From Bacteroidia bacterium (GTDB taxonomy: Bacteria; Bacteroidota; Bacteroidia; NS11-12g; UBA9320): a stretch of DNA of 57,668 nucleotides. Under the pieces are notes generated by a model, which had not been told where the DNA came from, made no database searches, and saw only the letters and a program-made list of their open reading frames with translations. Positions 6,673 to 20,850 of the stretch are shown here, one piece after another. Position numbers and translations under genes: made by a program. Location: positions 1 through 57,668 of the forward strand of contig JADLGN010000024.1 in assembly GCA_020849295.1 (NCBI GenBank), read 5' to 3'. Every line of letters starts with the position of its first letter. Within the stretch, counting starts at the first letter, position 1.

Positions 6673-7653
6673 TTAAATCTTTTGAAACTCAAACTTTGGA
6701 TATCCTTTTACTCCCAAATCATTGTAAAAATCAACAAAGTGAAGTTTGTAATAAAATCCGTTTTTGATTGAAATTACATAATTGAAATGTGGTAAAACAA
6801 TATATGAATTTGTAGAAAAACTGTATTGTTTCCACTCATAACCAATTGCATCATTATCTGATAAAAATTTATAAGAATCAAGTTTGCTCAATGAAATTTC
6901 ATTAAATGGAGTGTTAAAATCATAAGCTACCGTTACTTTATTCGGATTTATCAGAACTCCTGCAAGTTGGTAATTTTGTACAATTTTTAAATCAGTAGAA
7001 TAAATTCTTTTCACATATTGGGTAAAAAACAAATCCCATTCGTCTTTTGGAGGTTCAATAAGTAATTTTTTATTATTGATAAATGAAAAATGTACAAAAT
7101 TATATTTTGAGTCTTTTTCTATTATTGAAGTTTGGGTATTGTTTTCATTTAGCATACACCATTCAATTTTTAATTTGTTGTCGGAGGTAAGAGTTGGTTT
7201 GCACTTTACAAATCCAACTGGTAATCCTATTTGGTCAACACCAAGATTTACAATAAAAATTTCAGGATTTTTGAGCCACCATTGTCCAAAAGCAAGACTG
7301 TCAATATGAAGTGATGGTTGCCCCCAATTAAATTTGTATCCTGCTGTATCTGTTACTTCATTAAAATTACTTTTGCCGGTAAATGCTACATATACTCCTC
7401 TGCCATTATTAGGATGTATTATATGTTTAGTTTCGCTACAATCAAAGGCAATATCCCAGTCAAGTTTATTTATTACTTTAACTATTTTGTTTGAATCGAG
7501 ATTGAAAAAAACATGTTGGTCATAATTATTCCCCATTTCAGCTACATTTGTAGCAATATTTCCTCTGTCAAAAGGCTTTATTGGCTTTTCTTTCTTTTCA
7601 CATGATGAAAGTATTGAAATAATCGTGAATAATATTATGATTAAGTTTCTCAT
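6673..7653 (-). CDS. HmuY-family lipoprotein
   Basis: The 326-residue product has a lipoprotein signal peptide (ISILSSCEKKE, lipidated Cys at about 18) and two Trp-Asp motifs typical of HmuY-type haem-binding proteins: NKLDWDIAFDCSETKHI early and KDEWDLFFTQYVKRIY in the second half, the latter followed by YQLAGVLINPNKVTVAYDF. HmuY of Porphyromonas gingivalis captures haem at the cell surface and hands it to the receptor HmuR. This gene sits directly after (zero-base gap) a TonB-dependent receptor gene, the expected pairing. Haem as ligand is inferred from family and context; other HmuY homologues may bind other ligands. Confidence 0.72.
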   Translation of the reverse strand: MRNLIIILFTIISILSSCEKKEKPIKPFDRGNIATNVAEMGNNYDQHVFFNLDSNKIVKVINKLDWDIAFDCSETKHIIHPNNGRGVYVAFTGKSNFNEVTDTAGYKFNWGQPSLHIDSLAFGQWWLKNPEIFIVNLGVDQIGLPVGFVKCKPTLTSDNKLKIEWCMLNENNTQTSIIEKDSKYNFVHFSFINNKKLLIEPPKDEWDLFFTQYVKRIYSTDLKIVQNYQLAGVLINPNKVTVAYDFNTPFNEISLSKLDSYKFLSDNDAIGYEWKQYSFSTNSYIVLPHFNYVISIKNGFYYKLHFVDFYNDLGVKGYPKFEFQKI

Positions 7654-9894
7654 TTATTTGGCAAAATTATATTCAATTTTAGCAAAATATATTCTTCCCA
7701 TACCTATTTGCAAATTACCTCCATTACTATGTGAGCCGCCTGTATTTGCAGATGCTGAAAGTGTTTTAATATTAAAAATATTTTTTACACCTAAATAAGC
7801 TGTAATGTTTTTATTAAAAAAGTTTTTGTTCATTGTAAAGTCAGCCCATAAGAATTGGGGTATTTCAGATTTTATGGTTTCACCGTTTTCATTAGTTGTG
7901 AAGTTGTATGAAACGCTGTTATATTTTATAAAAAATGAAAAATTCAAACTGCTTTTTGGTTCTGAATATGTTGTATTACTTGAAATCTCATAAAAGCTTC
8001 CGTCACTATACAATCCATTTTTCCCAGTAGAAATAGTAGAACCTGACAAGCCCAAATTTCCTGAAATGTATTTGAGCCTATATGCAAAATTTGTATTAAA
8101 CCACAAAGACCTGAAATTAGCTATATTCATGTATGTGTAATTTGTATTTTGTAAATAAGAAAGAAATATCCTGTCTTTTATATTGTTTGCATAAAAAGAA
8201 ATCTCTGGATTAAAAATATTTTCTTTTTTAATAATTTTTTTGGAAACAGAAATTTGAAAATTATCAGATTTTTCGGGCTTTAGCTTGGGATTGCCGGTAA
8301 TATCGTGGTTTATATCTACAAAATTCATATAAAGTTCTTTTAAATCCGGGGCTCTAAATCCTCTTGCATAAGATGTTCTGATTACAAGATTATTTTTAAA
8401 CGAATATTTTAAATTAATGCTTGGAATTGGAATAGTTTTAAAAGCCGAATTATATGCGTATCTTATTGCTGGTTTTATCTGAAGTTCTTTTTTGGGCATA
8501 TACTCAAAACTACTGAAAAAAGCTATATCATTTATGTACTCAAATTCATTTTTGAGCCTTTGCCCTGAGCCTTTTTCAAGATTTATATCATACCCGGTTT
8601 GATAGTTTAATTTTGCATTTTTCAGTGATTTTGAAAAAGTGCCTCTCATTACAATATTGGTAAATGTAGTTGTATCTTGTTCATTTGCTTCGGGTACCAA
8701 AGTTTTATCTAAATTTACCCGATTAAAAAGATAGCGGTTTTTTATTCTCGAATAAGTATTATAAGCAAATATTAGATTCAAAAATCTGTTATGTCTGAAT
8801 TTGGTATTTGCAGTGATAGAATTATCAAAACGATTTGTAAAATAGTATTCGTCAAATGCAGTTTCATAATAAGGCATTCGCGGAACTCCCTTGTTTGTCA
8901 GCTTTTCGTTGAAATACTCAGATTTATACTCGGTGTCAAAATTTTTAATTTTTCGCAAATAATGAAATCTGGCAAAATATTGTTCTTTTGGTTTCCATTC
9001 CTGAAATCTTTCTAAATTAACAGATGACCAACCATCAAAATAATACCTGCCAACTGAAAAATTATAAATACCGTTAGCTTTTCTTAGCTTAATTGATGCG
9101 TCAACATTGTATTTACCTGCACTTTCATATAGAAATGAACTAGAAATATTGATTCTTTTTGAGTGTTTCTTTTTGGTAATAATATTAATTGCTCCTCCAA
9201 GAGCATTTGTTCCATAAGCTACAGAAAGTGGTCCTTCAATTACCTCTATTCTTTCTATATCATTAAGATTTATCTGGCTAATATCAATATTTCCGCCAAG
9301 TCTTCCAATTACCGGAATCCCATCAATAAGCAATTTTACATTTTGTCCACCTAAACCCATCAATGATAAATTGCTTCCTAAAACATTGTCCTGACTGATT
9401 TTGAAATTTATCTGATTTGATAATAAATCTGAGAGATTTGCAGCACCCATGCTTTTTATTTTCTTTTCATCAATAACAATAATTTTTTGAATAGCCTTTT
9501 CTGGATTGATAGCGGTGTATTGGTCTGTTACAACTGCTTCGGGCAAATATTTAAGGTCTGTTTTTACTAAAACAGTATAGTTGCCAGTATTTGCAAATGT
9601 ATCAGTTCTTAATTCGTACCCAAGATATGTAAAATAAGCAATCAAACCGCTTTTCTCATTGTCAATCTTTATAGTACCATTAATATCAGTCTGGCATTGC
9701 AGAGTTTTACCACTATTTATAATTTTCCATTTTACAGGAGCAAAAACTATTGGAGATTTTTCTGTTTCGCTTATATAAGTAATACTAATTTGTGCTTGAA
9801 CTAAATAAGTTATAAAAATTAAAATGACTGTAAATACACTTTTGTTACTAATGTATTTTATAACCAAATTTATATACTTATTTAAATAGTTCAA
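7654..9894 (-). CDS. TonB-dependent outer-membrane receptor (HmuR-like context)
   Basis: A 746-residue outer-membrane receptor. After a signal peptide (ending near VQAQ, residue 35) comes a carboxypeptidase-regulatory-like beta-sandwich (about 36-115), then the plug domain (about 135-245) with AANLSDLLSNQINFKIS, LLIDGIPVIG, DIERIEVIEGPLSVAYGTNALGGAINIITKK, and a beta-barrel containing GFRAPDLKELYMNF and GNPKLKPEKSDNFQIS. It should import a scarce ligand, probably haem, powered by TonB-ExbBD. The only start near the signal peptide is TTG at 9894, five bases after the upstream stop, so translation is likely coupled. Confidence 0.9.
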   Translation of the reverse strand: MNYLNKYINLVIKYISNKSVFTVILIFITYLVQAQISITYISETEKSPIVFAPVKWKIINSGKTLQCQTDINGTIKIDNEKSGLIAYFTYLGYELRTDTFANTGNYTVLVKTDLKYLPEAVVTDQYTAINPEKAIQKIIVIDEKKIKSMGAANLSDLLSNQINFKISQDNVLGSNLSLMGLGGQNVKLLIDGIPVIGRLGGNIDISQINLNDIERIEVIEGPLSVAYGTNALGGAINIITKKKHSKRINISSSFLYESAGKYNVDASIKLRKANGIYNFSVGRYYFDGWSSVNLERFQEWKPKEQYFARFHYLRKIKNFDTEYKSEYFNEKLTNKGVPRMPYYETAFDEYYFTNRFDNSITANTKFRHNRFLNLIFAYNTYSRIKNRYLFNRVNLDKTLVPEANEQDTTTFTNIVMRGTFSKSLKNAKLNYQTGYDINLEKGSGQRLKNEFEYINDIAFFSSFEYMPKKELQIKPAIRYAYNSAFKTIPIPSINLKYSFKNNLVIRTSYARGFRAPDLKELYMNFVDINHDITGNPKLKPEKSDNFQISVSKKIIKKENIFNPEISFYANNIKDRIFLSYLQNTNYTYMNIANFRSLWFNTNFAYRLKYISGNLGLSGSTISTGKNGLYSDGSFYEISSNTTYSEPKSSLNFSFFIKYNSVSYNFTTNENGETIKSEIPQFLWADFTMNKNFFNKNITAYLGVKNIFNIKTLSASANTGGSHSNGGNLQIGMGRIYFAKIEYNFAK

Positions 9895-9899
9895 TATTA

Positions 9900-11093
9900 T
9901 TAGTTTTTAATAAACTTCAAAATACCTATTCCGTCTTCTGAGTATATTTTAATTAAATAAATACCCATCTGTAATTCTGAAATATTTATTTTACTACTGT
10001 TTCCTTTAAGAATTTCAGCTCCATTTATTGAACAAATTGTGTAATTTTCTATATTTTTTTCAGAAATAATATTCAAATCATTATTTGCAGGGTTAGGATA
10101 AATACTTAGTGTTTTATTAGAATTATTCTTATTAACTGATGCTACAAAAAATTGCTTAGTGAAATAATAAGTACCGGCAGTACCACCTTTATATCCTGTA
10201 AAATATATTTTCCAATTTGCATTTTTTGAATTTTTTACGAAGTAAACCAAACTGTCGGTAATATCATATTTGCCTAATGACATATTGTATTTTTTCCAGT
10301 CATATCCAATAATAGAATTTGTATCAGAAAAATTATAATTATTGTAGTTTACAATGTCTTTTGAAACTTTTCTGGCTTCGGCACATTTTGTATCTTTATT
10401 AGTCCATATACCTGCAACATTATATTTCTGCGGTATAAAAACAGCGTATTTTGTAAACACAATATCCCAATCAGCATTAGATGGTTCGCGATCTATCACA
10501 GTATCATTATTAAATGCAAAATATGCAAAATTTCTGTTTTTATAATTTGTTTTTGATATAGATTTCAATTTACTGTTTGAGCCATCAATTGATGCATATT
10601 TGAAATTATATATACCAGAAATCAAATTTAATATCATAATTTTCTTTAATGATCCGTCAGCAAATTTTATCAAAAAAATACTATCGCCATTTACTGCATG
10701 TGTGTTCGGGTCATAAGTACCCCAGCCAAGATCATAATTTCCGTCTGTATGCCTATTGAATGCTCCGAGGTTCCATGTATATTCGCTGTTATACATTTTT
10801 TTGAAGTTTTTGTAACCGGTAGTGTCAAATGTTGCCCATTGTGCATTAGCAAAAGGTGTTTGATAAAGTTCAATACCTTTTACATGGTTTACAAGTATGC
10901 TTGCAGCCATTCCGCTCATTTCAAATGCTAAATCCCAATTTGTATTAGAAGAGGTTTTCACTACACCGTTTTCAAAACTGTAATAAACATCGTTTGTGTT
11001 AGAAGTTCCGGTGCTTACAGAGTCTGATGTTTGTGCAGATAATGAAAAATTTGCTGTAATAATCAGTAGAATTATAAATATTTTATTTATCAT
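9900..11093 (-). CDS. HmuY-like secreted protein with T9SS sorting domain
   Basis: The 397-residue product has a Sec signal peptide (ending LSAQ, about residue 20), a body that is clearly related to the HmuY-like lipoprotein at 6673 (NWDLAFEMSG early; NADWDIVFTKY, YNVAGIWTNKDTK and IIGYDWKKYN late), and a C-terminal domain of about 69 residues beginning SIYPNPANNDL and ending YLIKIYSEDGIGILKFIKN, a type A T9SS sorting signal. It is first in the operon 11093 to 6673, ahead of the TonB receptor. Inference: a T9SS-exported partner or scavenger working with the receptor, complementing the lipidated paralogue. Confidence 0.78.
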   Translation of the reverse strand: MINKIFIILLIITANFSLSAQTSDSVSTGTSNTNDVYYSFENGVVKTSSNTNWDLAFEMSGMAASILVNHVKGIELYQTPFANAQWATFDTTGYKNFKKMYNSEYTWNLGAFNRHTDGNYDLGWGTYDPNTHAVNGDSIFLIKFADGSLKKIMILNLISGIYNFKYASIDGSNSKLKSISKTNYKNRNFAYFAFNNDTVIDREPSNADWDIVFTKYAVFIPQKYNVAGIWTNKDTKCAEARKVSKDIVNYNNYNFSDTNSIIGYDWKKYNMSLGKYDITDSLVYFVKNSKNANWKIYFTGYKGGTAGTYYFTKQFFVASVNKNNSNKTLSIYPNPANNDLNIISEKNIENYTICSINGAEILKGNSSKINISELQMGIYLIKIYSEDGIGILKFIKN

Positions 11094-11115: not shown

Positions 11116-11123
11116 CAAATTTA
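11116..11123 (-). promoter_or_regulatory. -7 promoter box (TAAATTTG) for the HmuY/TonB operon
   Basis: On the minus strand TAAATTTG fits TAnnTTTG, 22 bases before the first ATG of the operon at 11093. No iron- or haem-responsive operator was recognised. Confidence 0.5.
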
Positions 11124-11213
11124 TTTATAATAATTCTAAATAAGCAAATAATTTTTTAAAAAAAACAATGATTATTGTCATTTAATATCTCAGGATTTTA
11201 AAAAATAATAAAA

Positions 11214-12163: not shown

Positions 12164-12955
12164 TTATATTATATATTCGATTAAAGTATTGAATATTTCA
12201 AATACTATTAATCCTATTATTATTATTTCTAGTTTTACATCAAGTTCGTGGTCAACTATGTCATTAAAAAGTTCGAGTTGTTCACGTATTACTAATAGTT
12301 CGCTATGCAGGGTATCGCTTCTTTTGTACATATTCAGGTTTTCTTTTAATCCTAAATCAAGTGTTTGAAGTTTTTCATTCTGATATGTTCCCGGAGATGC
12401 ATCTAAAATATATAAATTAGTAATTAAGCGGTTTTTAATACTCAATACTTTTCCTATTATTCTTTTAAGTTCCTTGTTAGAAACGTTTAATTTTTGAAAT
12501 TTTTCAAGAGATTCTGAGTGCAAATTTACATCATTGTATAATATTTTGGCTTGCAATGAATAGTAATCAAGAGTGAGAGATTGAGCTACATTAAGCATAA
12601 TCAACTTTATAATTTCACTTTCGGGATATCCTATTTCAAGTTTATTAAAACTAAATTTTATACCGTGAGAATAAGTTTCTACATCAAATTCTTTTATTAG
12701 TTCCCAGTCAATTCGGGTTAAAGCAAATGGATATATCAGTTTTAAAAATCTTTCAGTTTGATCTGGTTTTATGTTGAAAAAACATACAATACCATATTTA
12801 TATACAGAAATATATTGTTCTTTATAAATTTGGTAGAACAGCTCACTTTCTATAGTAGGATCAAAATAAATCAATTCAGCAGGTTTGGTATCTTTAAATT
12901 TTAAGATATCTATTTTTTCTGCTATTTGATATGCTACTATCTTTATTTTAGCCAT
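12164..12955 (-). CDS. RMD1 family protein (DUF155)
   Basis: A 263-residue protein with the layout of the RMD1/YagE/Sif2 family: an N-terminal alpha/beta region containing YISVYKYGIVCFFNI and a C-terminal helical region ending in a membrane-spanning hydrophobic helix (about 238-262, LEIIIIGLIVFEIFNTLIEYII). Signature pieces are AQSLTLDYYSLQAKILYNDV, IGKVLSIKNRLITNLYILDASPGTYQNEKL and HSELLVIREQLELFNDIVDHELDVKLE. Yeast homologues act in mitochondrial translation and meiotic division; the bacterial role is unknown. It stands alone on the minus strand. Confidence 0.75.
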   Translation of the reverse strand: MAKIKIVAYQIAEKIDILKFKDTKPAELIYFDPTIESELFYQIYKEQYISVYKYGIVCFFNIKPDQTERFLKLIYPFALTRIDWELIKEFDVETYSHGIKFSFNKLEIGYPESEIIKLIMLNVAQSLTLDYYSLQAKILYNDVNLHSESLEKFQKLNVSNKELKRIIGKVLSIKNRLITNLYILDASPGTYQNEKLQTLDLGLKENLNMYKRSDTLHSELLVIREQLELFNDIVDHELDVKLEIIIIGLIVFEIFNTLIEYII

Positions 12956-13069: not shown

Positions 13070-14449
13070 CTATTGAATTATTAACTTATTAGTTTCAGTA
13101 ATCGAATTATTAATCAACTTTACAAAATATAAACCTTTGTTTAAAAAATTGAGATTCAAATTGTATTTTGAAAACTCTAAAGTACCTATGTTTTCTGAAA
13201 AAACAATTTTACCCTTAATATCTGAAACTTGGATTTTACTGTTTGGCTCAATCAGATTTTTAAATACTAATGTGATTTTTCCATCTGCAGTGGGGTTTGG
13301 ATAAATATTTATTCCATTGTTTTTAATAACATTAACAGGGACAAGATTAGAATATGAAAATGTATTATCGTAATTAGTTTGCTTTAGTCTGTAATATGAA
13401 ATTCCATCGAAAGGTTGAGGGTCAATAGTGTGATATTTCAATTTTTGGCTGCTGTTTCCTGCACCATCAATTTTATCAACAAATATAAAATCTTTACCAT
13501 TAATTGTTTTTTCTACTGTAAAGTAGTCATTATTTACTTCTGTTGCCGTTGTCCAGTCAAGGTCAACTACATCATAATTTAATTTGGCAGTAAAACTCAT
13601 TAGAGTTACAGGCAGAGGGTTAAGATTAGAAATTGTACCAAATGCAAAACCTCCAAAATTGCTTGAAGATGATGACGCTGTTAATGTACCTGCCGAAGTT
13701 GTACCTGTTGTACTTGCATTTCCTAAGTTACTCCAAAGTGAGCCATTCCATTGAGTTACCCTTAAGTCACTTAAATTACCAATATTACTTGTATTTCCAC
13801 TCCAGTGTAAAGTTACTGTTACATTTGATGAACCTGTAGTGCGGTCAAGTTGCCAGTATTCGTTATCAGTTACTTTATTTAATGAAACATCTTTTGAAGA
13901 ACCAAAAGTAGATTTTGGATCTGTTCTGAAATATTCCGCAGTAAATGCATCTGTGGCATTGCTTGGTGCTGTTATAGAAATAGGCATGTAATAGCCTGTT
14001 TTACCAATATGATAAGTAAATGATTCATCACCAATTTTCTTTACCGGACCAATAATATAACTGTCTGACGAACCTCCAGAAATGGTCGCCCCGTCATTCA
14101 ATACAAGTAAATTTGAATTATTTGTGTAAACCATTCCATCGGTAAGAGTTAATAAATTTGTTACAACTACATTCCCGCCACTGAATGTTACACCCGTACT
14201 GCTGGTGTTATTTATTACCAAATTGTAAAATGTAGTAGAACCGCTACCCGATAGCGTTTGGGCACTTGTACCGTCAAAAGTAAATGTCCCTGAACTTTGA
14301 GTATATGTTCCGTTATTGGTAAAATTTCCGAAGAAAACCATATTAGCCCCCGAGTGAATTTGCAGGTTGCCTGTGTTTACTATATTATCTTGTGCATTTA
14401 AGCTATAAATAAAAATTATAGATATAAATGAAAAAATTATTTTTTTCAT
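13070..14449 (-). CDS. Secreted protein with T9SS type A sorting domain
   Basis: The 459-residue product has a signal peptide (ending SLNAQ, residue 19), an N-terminal repetitive region rich in Ser/Thr/Gly/Asn (FFGNFTNNGTYTQ, TFTFDGTSAQTL, then TFYNLVINNTSSTG and GNVVVTNLLTLTDG) that looks like a beta-solenoid, a PVTLMSFTAKLNYDVVDLDW segment common in front of sorting domains, a fibronectin-like stretch (EVNNDYFTVEKTINGKDF, ISYYRLKQTNYD), and an 80-residue C-terminal T9SS domain beginning NIYPNPTADGKITLV. It is the last gene of the operon, before the terminator. The role is probably cell-surface adhesion or structure; no enzyme motif is visible. Confidence 0.78.
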   Translation of the reverse strand: MKKIIFSFISIIFIYSLNAQDNIVNTGNLQIHSGANMVFFGNFTNNGTYTQSSGTFTFDGTSAQTLSGSGSTTFYNLVINNTSSTGVTFSGGNVVVTNLLTLTDGMVYTNNSNLLVLNDGATISGGSSDSYIIGPVKKIGDESFTYHIGKTGYYMPISITAPSNATDAFTAEYFRTDPKSTFGSSKDVSLNKVTDNEYWQLDRTTGSSNVTVTLHWSGNTSNIGNLSDLRVTQWNGSLWSNLGNASTTGTTSAGTLTASSSSSNFGGFAFGTISNLNPLPVTLMSFTAKLNYDVVDLDWTTATEVNNDYFTVEKTINGKDFIFVDKIDGAGNSSQKLKYHTIDPQPFDGISYYRLKQTNYDNTFSYSNLVPVNVIKNNGINIYPNPTADGKITLVFKNLIEPNSKIQVSDIKGKIVFSENIGTLEFSKYNLNLNFLNKGLYFVKLINNSITETNKLIIQ

Positions 14450-14475: not shown

Positions 14476-15681
14476 TTATTGTGTATTAGTAAACCATTGC
14501 AAATCTTGCATTTTTATTGTATAATTACTTGCACTTGTATTGCTTGAAAATATTTCAAAATAATCATTTTGTGATACATTTTCTATATATGCAATAAATG
14601 AAAACTGAAATGGTTGGTTTGACGTAAGTGTTCTCAATGTTGTTGTCCCATACTTATTTGCTGTATTTCCATTTTTTACTATACAAACATTAATGTTTTG
14701 GTTACTGGCATTAACCACCGATAAGTTTCCGGAAACAAAAATTACAACATTTCTTTTATTAGTAGGTTGATATGTTATTTTATTGTTATTAATAGTCCAT
14801 TTGCATGTTTCAGAAGATGTGTTACTACCCCAATTTACTTTGTAATATGTATTAATTGTAGTTAATGTAGTTGTTGTTGCAGTATTATCTAGTACATTTA
14901 TAAAACAATTTGGTTTTTGGTCTGCCATGCCTGCATTACTTTCGAGAGTGGCATTTTTATCTCTGCCGTCTGTTCTTGTAAAATCAAAGCCTGAAATATA
15001 GCTTCCCTCATTATTCCACGAATTTCCTGTTATTGCCATATTTGTAAAACTAAATGTATAAGGATGATAAGTTATTGCGGAGTCGCTACTGCCATTGTAA
15101 TATCCCCCTGACGCTAATTGAATAGTAGTTGAAGAACCTTTATCAAGATTAACTCCATGCGTACAATCTATGAAATCTGTTTCTGCAACTTTAAGTATAG
15201 CACCGGCTGTAGCACTATGCAATAATATTCCGTTTAAGGTAGCATTTTGAATATCAGTTTCAAAAACCCAAAGTTCAGCATTACTTGAATCGGTAATTGT
15301 ATTATAAAATCCATCAAAAGTGCAATCTTTTATTTCATTATAGGTATCTTCTCCAAGAAAACGAATAGCATCTTCCCCAGAAGAATTACCATGATCTCCG
15401 GATCCTCCACCATCATTAAAACCAAGCATTTTAAAGTAGCAATCAGTTTTACATCTGAACATTGGTTTTCCACTCAAAGCTGTTGTATCTGCTACAATTG
15501 ATGATGTACTATATGACAATCCTTGTATTGTAAGAGAATATGGTAAGTCAATAATAATTGTTTCATCTATTACATATTCTTCATCCCCAAGTCTTAAAAT
15601 CATAGGTTGTGCCATGTGTTCTTCTAAAAATGCAATAGCCTCGGCTATTGTTGTCCAACTGCCTTCTGCATTCACATCCAT
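14476..15681 (-). CDS. Right-handed beta-helix-like protein, downstream half of a TAG-split ORF
   Basis: If read from its first ATG this gives 401 residues. SWTTIAEAIAFLEEHMAQPM followed by DEEYVIDETIIIDLPYSLTIQG and repeats of short strands with Asn/Gly turns (YNEIKDCTFDGF, VFETDIQNATLNGILLH, AETDFIDCTHGVNL) suggest a parallel beta-helix of the pectate-lyase/tail-spike type. It has no signal peptide of its own. The frame is open upstream of the ATG and meets the TAG stop of the preceding gene in the same frame, so this is most likely the C-terminal half of one 601-residue secreted protein. It has no T9SS domain at its end (DLQWFTNTQ). Confidence 0.6.
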   Translation of the reverse strand: MDVNAEGSWTTIAEAIAFLEEHMAQPMILRLGDEEYVIDETIIIDLPYSLTIQGLSYSTSSIVADTTALSGKPMFRCKTDCYFKMLGFNDGGGSGDHGNSSGEDAIRFLGEDTYNEIKDCTFDGFYNTITDSSNAELWVFETDIQNATLNGILLHSATAGAILKVAETDFIDCTHGVNLDKGSSTTIQLASGGYYNGSSDSAITYHPYTFSFTNMAITGNSWNNEGSYISGFDFTRTDGRDKNATLESNAGMADQKPNCFINVLDNTATTTTLTTINTYYKVNWGSNTSSETCKWTINNNKITYQPTNKRNVVIFVSGNLSVVNASNQNINVCIVKNGNTANKYGTTTLRTLTSNQPFQFSFIAYIENVSQNDYFEIFSSNTSASNYTIKMQDLQWFTNTQ

Positions 15682-15717
15682 TATATTATCCGGAATATTT
15701 TCTTTGCGTTTTGTAAT

Positions 15718-16281
15718 CTAGTTTCCGCCATTTGCTATAAAAGTCATACCAATATAACGAGTTTCATTGTACTGCAATTGACCGTCAATGGTTGCCGATC
15801 CATACCCATCAACAGTTACCAAATCATCATAAGAGCCATTGTTTTTTACTGTAATTTCAAGCCCATTGTCAATAGAGGTAATTTCAGGAAGCGTAATGGT
15901 TGCACTTGTTGTTGCAGGGTTTACCAAAACAAATGTTTCATTTTTTGTTAATGTGGCATTTGCAGTTTTACTTGCAGGGTTCGAAGCTCCATTTAAAATT
16001 TTTGCCCATTTGGTACCATCCCAATAATAAAATCCTTTAGAAAGAGTGCTACCGCTGTTATATACAATCATTCCTTCAGGGATTGGGTCTGAAAGAGGTG
16101 CTACAATACTAACTCCTGTAAGTGTAACACGCGGAATTAAAAAACCTTTAGTAGTACTTTCAAGTTCAAGAATTGAATTTGAATTAATTGTTCCGGGATT
16201 GTCCCCGATCTTAACTTGTGAATTTGCAATTTTGCTTGTAATAAATAACAAGCACATTGAATAGAAAATTTTCTTTGTCAT
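15718..16281 (-). CDS. Secreted protein, upstream half of the TAG-split beta-helix ORF
   Basis: 187 residues from the ATG at 16281. A signal peptide (MTKKIFYSMCLLFITSKIAN) is followed by NSILELESTTKGFLIPRVTL and GMIVYNSGSTLSKGFYYWDG, a module common at the front of Bacteroidetes surface proteins, then a region with TLTKNETFVLVNP and GNGLEITVKN-like strands (seen as NGLEITVKNNGSYDD) ending ETRYIGMTFIANGGN at a TAG. The next in-frame codons run without another stop into the beta-helix ORF. A TTG at 16305 overlaps the promoter box and is not used as the start. Confidence 0.62.
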   Translation of the reverse strand: MTKKIFYSMCLLFITSKIANSQVKIGDNPGTINSNSILELESTTKGFLIPRVTLTGVSIVAPLSDPIPEGMIVYNSGSTLSKGFYYWDGTKWAKILNGASNPASKTANATLTKNETFVLVNPATTSATITLPEITSIDNGLEITVKNNGSYDDLVTVDGYGSATIDGQLQYNETRYIGMTFIANGGN

Positions 16282-16302
16282 AATAAAATAAATTAGGTAA
16301 CA

Positions 16303-16310
16303 CAAAAATA
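16303..16310 (-). promoter_or_regulatory. -7 promoter box (TATTTTTG) for the surface-protein operon
   Basis: On the minus strand TATTTTTG fits TAnnTTTG, 21 bases ahead of the ATG at 16281. A CTTG at roughly 22 bases further upstream may serve as the -33 box. Confidence 0.5.
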
Positions 16311-18645: not shown

Positions 18646-18741
18646 ATAGTTTTGAAATTTTAATTTTAAAATATCATTTAAATTGAGATTTTAAAAAATT
18701 AATATTGCACAATTTTTGTGAAGAGCAAATTTAAAATAAAT

Positions 18742-20850
18742 ATGATTAAAAATAGAAATATAATACTTGCATTACTAATTATACTGTCAGCATTAAACCT
18801 GATGGCACAGCATAATACATGCGGTACTGACAAATACACATCTGATATTATTAAATCAGACCCTGAAATACAGAAAAGATATAATGAATATAATGAGAAT
18901 ATTCAGAAAATTTCAGACAATGAAAAAAAGCAGTTCAAAAAAGGAACAACCCGAACTATACCGGTGGTATTTCATGTAATTCATACTTACGGTAGTGAAA
19001 ATATTACAAAAGCTCAAATAGAAGACCAGCTTAGAATATTAAATGAAGCATATCAACGTCAAAACGCCGATACTGTAAATACACGCAGTATTTTTAAAGG
19101 ATTGGCTGCCGATATGGATATTGAGTTTAAGCTTGCTCGAAAAGATCAAAATGGAAATTGTACAGAAGGAATTACAAGAACATTTTCATACCTTACAGAC
19201 GGGGGAGATGATGCAGTAAAAAATATTATAAGATGGGATTATCGCAAATATTTAAATATTTGGGTTGTAAAAAATATAGCAATGGATGCTGGCAGCGGTG
19301 GCAGAGTATTGGGATATGCTACATTGCCAAGTTCTACTAATTCTACCAAAGACGGAATAGTAATTCTTTCAGATTTTGTTGGAAGTATAGGAACAGCTAC
19401 AAGCAATAATTACAAAGGACGAACCTTAGTGCATGAAGTAGGACACTGGCTAGGATTGTATCATCCGTTTCAGGGAGGCTGCGGCGGAAATTGTAATAAT
19501 TCCGGTGATTATGTATGCGATACTCCTCCGGTAAAAGAGCCAAGTTATGGTTGTCCAAATACAAATAATACCTGTTCAAATGATTTTCCTGACCAGTTAG
19601 ATATGATTGAAAATTTTATGGATTATGCAACAGGTTCTTGTCAAAATATGTTCACTAAAGGACAAAAAGCTGTAGTTGATTATTCCCTTGGAAATGCAAA
19701 TTACAGAGCACAAAATATATCTACGGCAGCACACAATGCAACAGGTATTTTTACAAATCCTTCATGTACGCCAATTGCAGATTTCAATACTTCAAATAAT
19801 ATTATTACAGTTTGTGAAAAAGGCTCTGTTACATTTAAAGATTATACATATAATGCAACTGCTACTACATACTCATGGACTTTTGAGGGTGGTACACCTT
19901 CAACATCAAGTTCAAGCAATCCTACGATAACTTATAATACTGCCGGTACATATAAGGTTACACTTACTGTAAGTAATGCCACAGGGCAAAACACTAAGAT
20001 AGTTGATAAAATGATAACTGTAATAGCTGCCGAATCACAGTTGAAATCGCCCTATACCGAAGGGTTTGAAAATAGTCAGATACTAAATGGTTTTTGGAAA
20101 GCATGGGAAGCCGGAGATTATGGATGGCGAAGAATAACAACCACAAAATACGAAGGAGTTGCAGGTATGCAAGCTTATATTGATGCTGGTTCGGCTTCAA
20201 ATACATTGTATAGTCTTGTTTCTGATAATTTTGACCTTAGTACAATCAAAGGTAGAAGTCCATTGTTGAAATTTAGAGTGGCATACCGTCCGGCAGTTGC
20301 AAATAGCACAGAAGTATTAACAATATATGTATCTACAAATTGCGGACAAACATGGCTTCCATTAAAAGCAATTTCAAATGCAAACGGACTTGGAGTTGAT
20401 AAAGTAATAGAAAATGGATGGCAACCTACAATGCAATCACATTGGAACGAAATAAGTCTTGATATTACAAAATATGAAAGTACAAAAAACTTGATATTGA
20501 AATTTGAAGCACGAAGCCGTAGTGGAAATAGTATTTATCTGGATAATGTGAAAATTGAAGCATTGTTGCCGGCAAAAGTTTCGGAAATTGAAAATGAAAA
20601 TTTGTTTCAAGTTTATCCAAATCCAAATAATGGAAAATTCAATATAGTAATTAATCATGGAAAATTTAAAATTAATGATTTGAAAATAACTGATATTTCA
20701 GGAAAGGTAATTACTATTAAAGATTCAAATTACCAAAATGGTGCAAACGAAAGCAAAATAGAGTTAGATAATATACCTGCCGGGATGTATTTTATAAATC
20801 TTAATATTGAAAATAAAATAATAACTAAAAAAATAACAGTATTACCATAA
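18742..20850 (+). CDS. Secreted M43-family zinc metalloprotease with PKD and T9SS domains
   Basis: 702 residues from the ATG at 18742 (an upstream GTG at 18718 would precede the signal peptide and is not preferred). Order: signal peptide (ending NLMAQ), propeptide-like segment, pappalysin-type catalytic domain with the zinc motif HEVGHWLGLYH (231-241) and the Met-turn region ENFMDYATGSCQNMFT, a PKD-like domain (VTFKDYTYNATATTYSWTFEGG, YNTAGTYKVTLTVSN), a jelly-roll-like segment (YTEGFENSQILNGFWKAW ... LILKFEARSRSGNSIYLDNV), and a C-terminal T9SS domain starting QVYPNPNNGKFNI. It probably digests extracellular protein. topA follows after six bases. Confidence 0.9.
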   Translation: MIKNRNIILALLIILSALNLMAQHNTCGTDKYTSDIIKSDPEIQKRYNEYNENIQKISDNEKKQFKKGTTRTIPVVFHVIHTYGSENITKAQIEDQLRILNEAYQRQNADTVNTRSIFKGLAADMDIEFKLARKDQNGNCTEGITRTFSYLTDGGDDAVKNIIRWDYRKYLNIWVVKNIAMDAGSGGRVLGYATLPSSTNSTKDGIVILSDFVGSIGTATSNNYKGRTLVHEVGHWLGLYHPFQGGCGGNCNNSGDYVCDTPPVKEPSYGCPNTNNTCSNDFPDQLDMIENFMDYATGSCQNMFTKGQKAVVDYSLGNANYRAQNISTAAHNATGIFTNPSCTPIADFNTSNNIITVCEKGSVTFKDYTYNATATTYSWTFEGGTPSTSSSSNPTITYNTAGTYKVTLTVSNATGQNTKIVDKMITVIAAESQLKSPYTEGFENSQILNGFWKAWEAGDYGWRRITTTKYEGVAGMQAYIDAGSASNTLYSLVSDNFDLSTIKGRSPLLKFRVAYRPAVANSTEVLTIYVSTNCGQTWLPLKAISNANGLGVDKVIENGWQPTMQSHWNEISLDITKYESTKNLILKFEARSRSGNSIYLDNVKIEALLPAKVSEIENENLFQVYPNPNNGKFNIVINHGKFKINDLKITDISGKVITIKDSNYQNGANESKIELDNIPAGMYFINLNIENKIITKKITVLP

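Follow-up and report, generated by a model that had tools for sequence, protein, structure and literature searches.

The window, that is, the whole stretch of 57,668 nucleotides that was analysed, carries between positions 11093 and 6673 three minus-strand open reading frames. They follow the order that the initial annotation had given for the operon, with a T9SS-tagged HmuY-like protein, a TonB receptor and a HmuY-like lipoprotein. The features considered here are the following:

Positions 9900 to 11093, minus strand: gene 1, open reading frame for the T9SS-sorted HmuY-like protein (P0003, 397 aa)
Positions 7654 to 9894, minus strand: gene 2, TonB-dependent outer-membrane receptor (P0002, 746 aa, TTG start; Plug 73.3 bits, TonB_dep_Rec 70.9 bits)
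Positions 6673 to 7653, minus strand: gene 3, HmuY-like lipoprotein (P0001, 326 aa; PF14064 52.9 bits over residues 43-323)
Positions 8236 to 8361, minus strand: haem-receptor box in gene 2, receptor residues ~512-553, GFRAP...NH530DITGNPKL (His530 counts given below)
Positions 11116 to 11148, minus strand: candidate Bacteroidota-type promoter from sequence inspection, TTTG (11148-11145), a 21-bp spacer and TAAATTTG (11123-11116)

The intergenic gaps are 5 bp between genes 1 and 2 and 0 bp between genes 2 and 3. A flavoprotein reductase-like gene is divergent to gene 1, an unrelated open reading frame is convergent with gene 3, and no hmuSTUV genes were found inside or beside the trio. The candidate promoter ends ~22 bp upstream of the first ATG of gene 1; elements resembling its -7 element were seen upstream in some relatives and were absent from others, and a search for upstream promoter conservation across relatives gave no clear conserved promoter. 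Elsewhere in the window, a protein with a T9SS sorting domain is encoded at 13070-14449 (minus strand), and one relative has a similar protein upstream of its trio (L025, 1489-2868). A DUF155/RMND1-like protein (67.6 bits), of a family better known from mitochondria, is encoded at 12164-12955 (minus strand), while the two adjoining open reading frames at 14476-16305 (minus strand) had no Pfam match.

The lipoprotein P0001 is composed of a lipobox (LSSC) with Cys18 and two HmuY-like units at ~40-175 and ~176-326, and Cys18 was invariant in its orthologues (30/30). Acidic residues follow the cysteine in most lipoproteins, and the strict K-(D/E)2 motif, the consensus surface-lipoprotein export signal (PMC5080379), was present in several relatives, not in P0001. 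All 30 lipoprotein relatives matched the HmuY profile PF14064. No His or Met was invariant among these 30 proteins; characterised HmuY proteins ligate haem by His-His or Met-Met. Tyr213 and Tyr228 were conserved, and could be haem ligands.

The layout of P0003 comprises a Sec signal peptide (~1-20) ending in Ala-Gln, HmuY-like units at ~30-178 and ~179-322, and at the C-terminus (~331-397) a sorting domain of T9SS type A, which was recognised by PF18962 (Por_Secre_tail, 42.8 bits) and by TIGR04183 (39.7 bits, where the cut-off is 23). In its relatives, the sorting domain was found in 28/28 and a HmuY match in 17/28. His132 of the T9SS form was kept in 26/28 and was conserved only in this family, not in the lipoprotein family, and is a candidate haem ligand.

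The two binders had been described as paralogues sent to the surface by different routes, and both parts of this claim held. BLASTP aligned 272 aa of P0001 and P0003 at 25% identity (E = 3e-15), and a profile-profile comparison of 30 lipoproteins with 28 T9SS forms gave E = 9.6e-49; these two values rule out a chance similarity. By these comparisons the proteins are true paralogues, with the lipobox Cys18 on one side and the PF18962 sorting domain on the other. The Trp-Asp motifs said to be shared are indeed common to both binders, but they come twice per protein because P0001 and P0003 are each internally duplicated, with similarity between the N- and C-terminal halves at E = 3e-6 within the lipoprotein family and E = 4e-7 within the T9SS family. 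Each binder is, as judged from its sequence, a double HmuY-like protein, and PF14064 often matched twice in long HmuY proteins of other genomes. Receptor-linked HmuY lipoproteins of ~470 aa, with an extra N-terminal region of ~150 aa before the double HmuY, were observed in seven loci (L074, L075, L085, L086, L087, L104 and L105).

The profile search proposed earlier against PF14064 supported the lipoprotein well (52.9 bits), and the T9SS protein just reached the cut-off (27.0 bits, exactly the cut-off, in a search of the whole genome). P0003 was not called HmuY by a single-protein Pfam scan, and NCBIfam recognised HmuY in neither protein. Profile searches outdid PDB searches with single sequences for both binders: the latter retrieved only HmuY-like lipoproteins, weakly (E = 0.4-0.6), for P0001 and no HmuY entry for P0003. 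AlphaFold2 models built from three-sequence alignments were weak (mean pLDDT 64 for the lipoprotein and 51 for the T9SS form). Among VIA matches, HmuY structures ranked top for the lipoprotein model (Z 7.5-9.3, with unrelated folds well below) and reached Z 5.1-6.8 for the T9SS-form model, with 3h8t as the best match (Z 6.8). Structure prediction thus gave HmuY structures as the best-matching solved folds for both binders, but with low model confidence. The haem ligands of P. gingivalis HmuY could not be placed by profile alignment, since this alignment spans only the domain ends. In the 2.68-Mb host genome (99.99% complete), P0001 and P0003 were the only two HmuY matches in a profile search.

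We then considered the receptor. His530 of the haem-receptor box was present in 21/21 trio receptors and in 29/29 HmuY-linked receptors elsewhere (50/50), compared with 0/8 other TBDRs of the host genome, and a conserved histidine together with FRAP/NPNL motifs has been reviewed as the mark of haem receptors (PMC6449446). A further histidine near the C-terminus, His722, was found in 21/21 trio receptors and 23/29 other HmuY-linked receptors, while the plug domain contained no conserved His. The best PDB match of the loop region was the haem receptor PhuR.

Conservation of the trio and of its gene order, a check raised by the initial annotation, was borne out in 45 genomes of the host's order (completeness at least 95%), in which neighbour counts were taken from positions in the search tables. 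The T9SS paralogue was present in 45/45, and the lipoprotein gene lay ~3-4 kb downstream of it, on the same contig and strand, in 41/45; in the remaining four genomes, the lipoprotein was on another contig in three and missing from one. With this order kept in 41 genomes, and with HmuY structures as the best matches of both (weak) models, neither of the results that the initial annotation had named as refuting its reading was obtained. When relatives' loci were inspected, the trio order was the same in 21/22, and in the other locus the contig ends before the T9SS gene; among these 22, L023 and L034 appear to be one genome and L040 has a masked stretch within the T9SS gene. The genes were close or overlapping in most loci (20 with small gaps or overlaps). 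In one genome (G452, contigs C26 and C56) there were apparently two complete pairs of T9SS-HmuY and lipoprotein-HmuY genes at trio spacing.

In a wider sample of the phylum, HmuY was detected in 137/392 genomes, and outside the order the receptor-lipoprotein pair was a common unit while the T9SS paralogue was patchy. A strong match to the latter (E < 1e-60) was obtained in 18 genomes, host included, and its arrangements ranged from trio spacing (G434, G289 and G162) to adjacent genes (G253), a nearby gene (G370) and a receptor with the T9SS form only (L095). In L081-L084 the T9SS-paralogue gene is divergent, with a 260-aa sorting-domain protein in between. A sorting-domain protein of ~260 aa was observed divergent beside the receptor in L081, L082, L083, L084 and L102, and in L081-L084 its gene adjoins that of the T9SS-HmuY. 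In a tree of 58 proteins, a single branch with 100/100 support parted the lipidated from the T9SS-tagged forms, both sides echoed similar subgroupings, and no switch of export route was seen. It follows that the split is ancient and that, within this sample, neither side has taken up the other's export route; the same tree rules out a recent lineage-specific duplication.

Profile searches of the host genome found no ferrochelatase and, in a search of the host alone, no ALA dehydratase (ALAD), yet two COX1 matches, i.e., haem-copper oxidase subunit I, were found, also searched in the host alone. This very likely makes the host a haem auxotroph that respires; the trio is the strongest candidate for its haem route and probably the main source of its haem, or the only one. 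Ferrochelatase was likewise not found by profile search in 44/45 genomes of the order, for which an environmental habitat was assumed from MAG-type records. Since its members mostly appear unable to make haem, the trio is probably how bacteria of this order obtain it. The T9SS components SprA and PorU are encoded in the host genome; the search for PorU, the T9SS sortase, gave one more match, of lower score, in a 1660-aa open frame (G000:C20:82443-87260). At 18718-20850 (plus strand) the window also encodes an M43 pappalysin-like metallopeptidase with PKD and T9SS sorting domains, possibly a secreted enzyme able to release protein-bound haem.

We put at roughly two in three the probability that the trio is one haem-uptake operon, which would supply an exported hemophore, a lipid-anchored receptor partner and an importer for capture in two tiers. 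The receptor would import haem across the outer membrane, energised by TonB, and the lipoprotein would be a HmuY-type partner tethered close to it. The T9SS-sorted paralogue would be exported across the outer membrane and then released or anchored further out, where it may take haem or haemoproteins and hand haem inward, directly or via the lipoprotein. P. gingivalis HmuY is bound to the outer membrane and can be released by proteases, which presumably makes capture and delivery more effective (PMC11442138); since proteolysis can set the anchored form free, a single protein does both jobs there. In the trio, these two jobs would be divided between two dedicated genes after the ancient duplication, and such a division of labour between a T9SS-exported and a lipid-anchored binder would be the simplest reading of the anatomy. 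Gene order, paralogy, export signals, conservation, the receptor signature, the missing synthesis genes and the presence of a T9SS are observed, whereas we infer that haem is what both proteins bind, that the T9SS form is set free and which way haem passes. The two-stage capture suggested initially is plausible, and both the haem-receptor box and the host's apparent auxotrophy for haem add weight to it. Counting against this model, F. columnare showed no growth defect when its T9SS-secreted HmuY was deleted (PMC9618737); the lack of an invariant His or Met in the lipoprotein family, the weak AlphaFold2 models and the slight lead of B12 over hemin in generic receptor profiles also weigh against it. 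More tentatively, the order may have lost haem synthesis and come to depend on a two-tier hemophore relay, in which an ancient HmuY split would have produced a T9SS scavenger and a lipid-anchored partner, both double.

The locus might also be a haem system without a relay, in which the binders serve different haem sources (e.g., free haem and cytochromes) and supply the receptor independently of each other. Haem coordination differs greatly among HmuY relatives (PMC12106395, PMC9331221), each of the two families has its own conserved residues, such as His132 in the T9SS form only (26/28), and the T9SS and lipoprotein genes stand apart or alone in some genomes. However, the two genes keep strictly together and in the same arrangement in 41/45 genomes of the order, which hints that the binders depend on each other, and we regard independent delivery as rather unlikely. 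It seems less probable still that one of the pair, probably the lipoprotein, has lost its haem binding and acts as a lid or a docking subunit for the receptor, leaving the T9SS protein as the only hemophore. Of the two proteins, it is the lipoprotein that resembles HmuY more closely (52.9 bits, against 27 for the T9SS form), and its conserved tyrosines 213 and 228 could ligate haem, although the lack of an invariant His or Met in its family leaves room for docking, and the receptor-lipoprotein pair is a widespread core unit that recalls SusC-SusD pairs.

A ligand other than haem, be it a different tetrapyrrole (e.g., cobalamin) or an iron chelate of another kind, is in our view very improbable. 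This idea draws on the generic receptor profiles, where TonB-B12 scored 113.6 bits and TonB-hemin 98.7 bits, although these and the other receptor profiles that matched all stayed far below cut-off, and on B12 uptake in Bacteroides, which involves surface lipoproteins (PMC6143338). It is opposed by the invariant histidine of the FRAP-NPxL box (50/50 versus 0/8), by the HmuY family members that flank the receptor on both sides, and by a host without haem synthesis genes that nevertheless has haem-copper oxidases.

The initial annotation took one HmuY with HmuR as the canonical system, which holds only in part: two or three HmuYs are present in P. intermedia, B. fragilis and several Porphyromonas (PMC12106395), and a T9SS-secreted HmuY is known from F. 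columnare (PMC9618737), so that neither multiple HmuYs per genome nor a T9SS-tagged HmuY is new. The P. gingivalis HmuY-HmuR system (hmuYRSTUV) resembles the trio in that a HmuY-family lipoprotein adjoins a TonB-dependent haem receptor and serves a haem auxotroph. It differs in having one HmuY gene, before the receptor, with a single HmuY unit, whereas in the trio two paralogues of two units each, one of them T9SS-sorted, flank the receptor; it also includes hmuSTUV. The F. columnare protein C6N29_01035 combines a HmuY domain with Por_Secre_tail and is T9SS-secreted, like P0003 by its layout, but was reported as a single secreted HmuY, with no lipidated partner or receptor trio described (PMC9618737). 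In F. psychrophilum, HfpY binds haem and its gene is co-transcribed with that of the receptor; hfpR-hfpY, which is induced by iron scarcity, joins a receptor and a HmuY-like gene in one transcript, but has a DoxX-family gene in between, one HmuY-like protein and no reported T9SS paralogue (PMC9331221). The hmu operon of P. endodontalis contains a gene for a T9SS-sorted protein, POREN0001_0445, co-transcribed with hmuY, but its product was described as beta-barrel-like and not as a HmuY paralogue (PMC11208336). P. intermedia and Porphyromonas species, like the host, have several HmuY homologues per genome, which were described as further homologues and not as a T9SS/lipid split around one receptor (PMC12106395). 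In the open-access papers that we consulted, we found no description of the T9SS-receptor-lipoprotein trio or of the double-HmuY pair.

That environmental Bacteroidota can be haem auxotrophs is known in general, but the uptake route has been described as a gap: haem acquisition by auxotrophs outside animal hosts is nearly unstudied, and 60% of surveyed genomes had no receptor (PMC11139205). The trio is a concrete, order-wide candidate for such acquisition, and its gene order is diagnostic for finding haem systems of this kind. It also hints at how these bacteria may be cultivated, namely with added haem, and is a natural case in which to test why a hemophore comes in anchored and exported forms.
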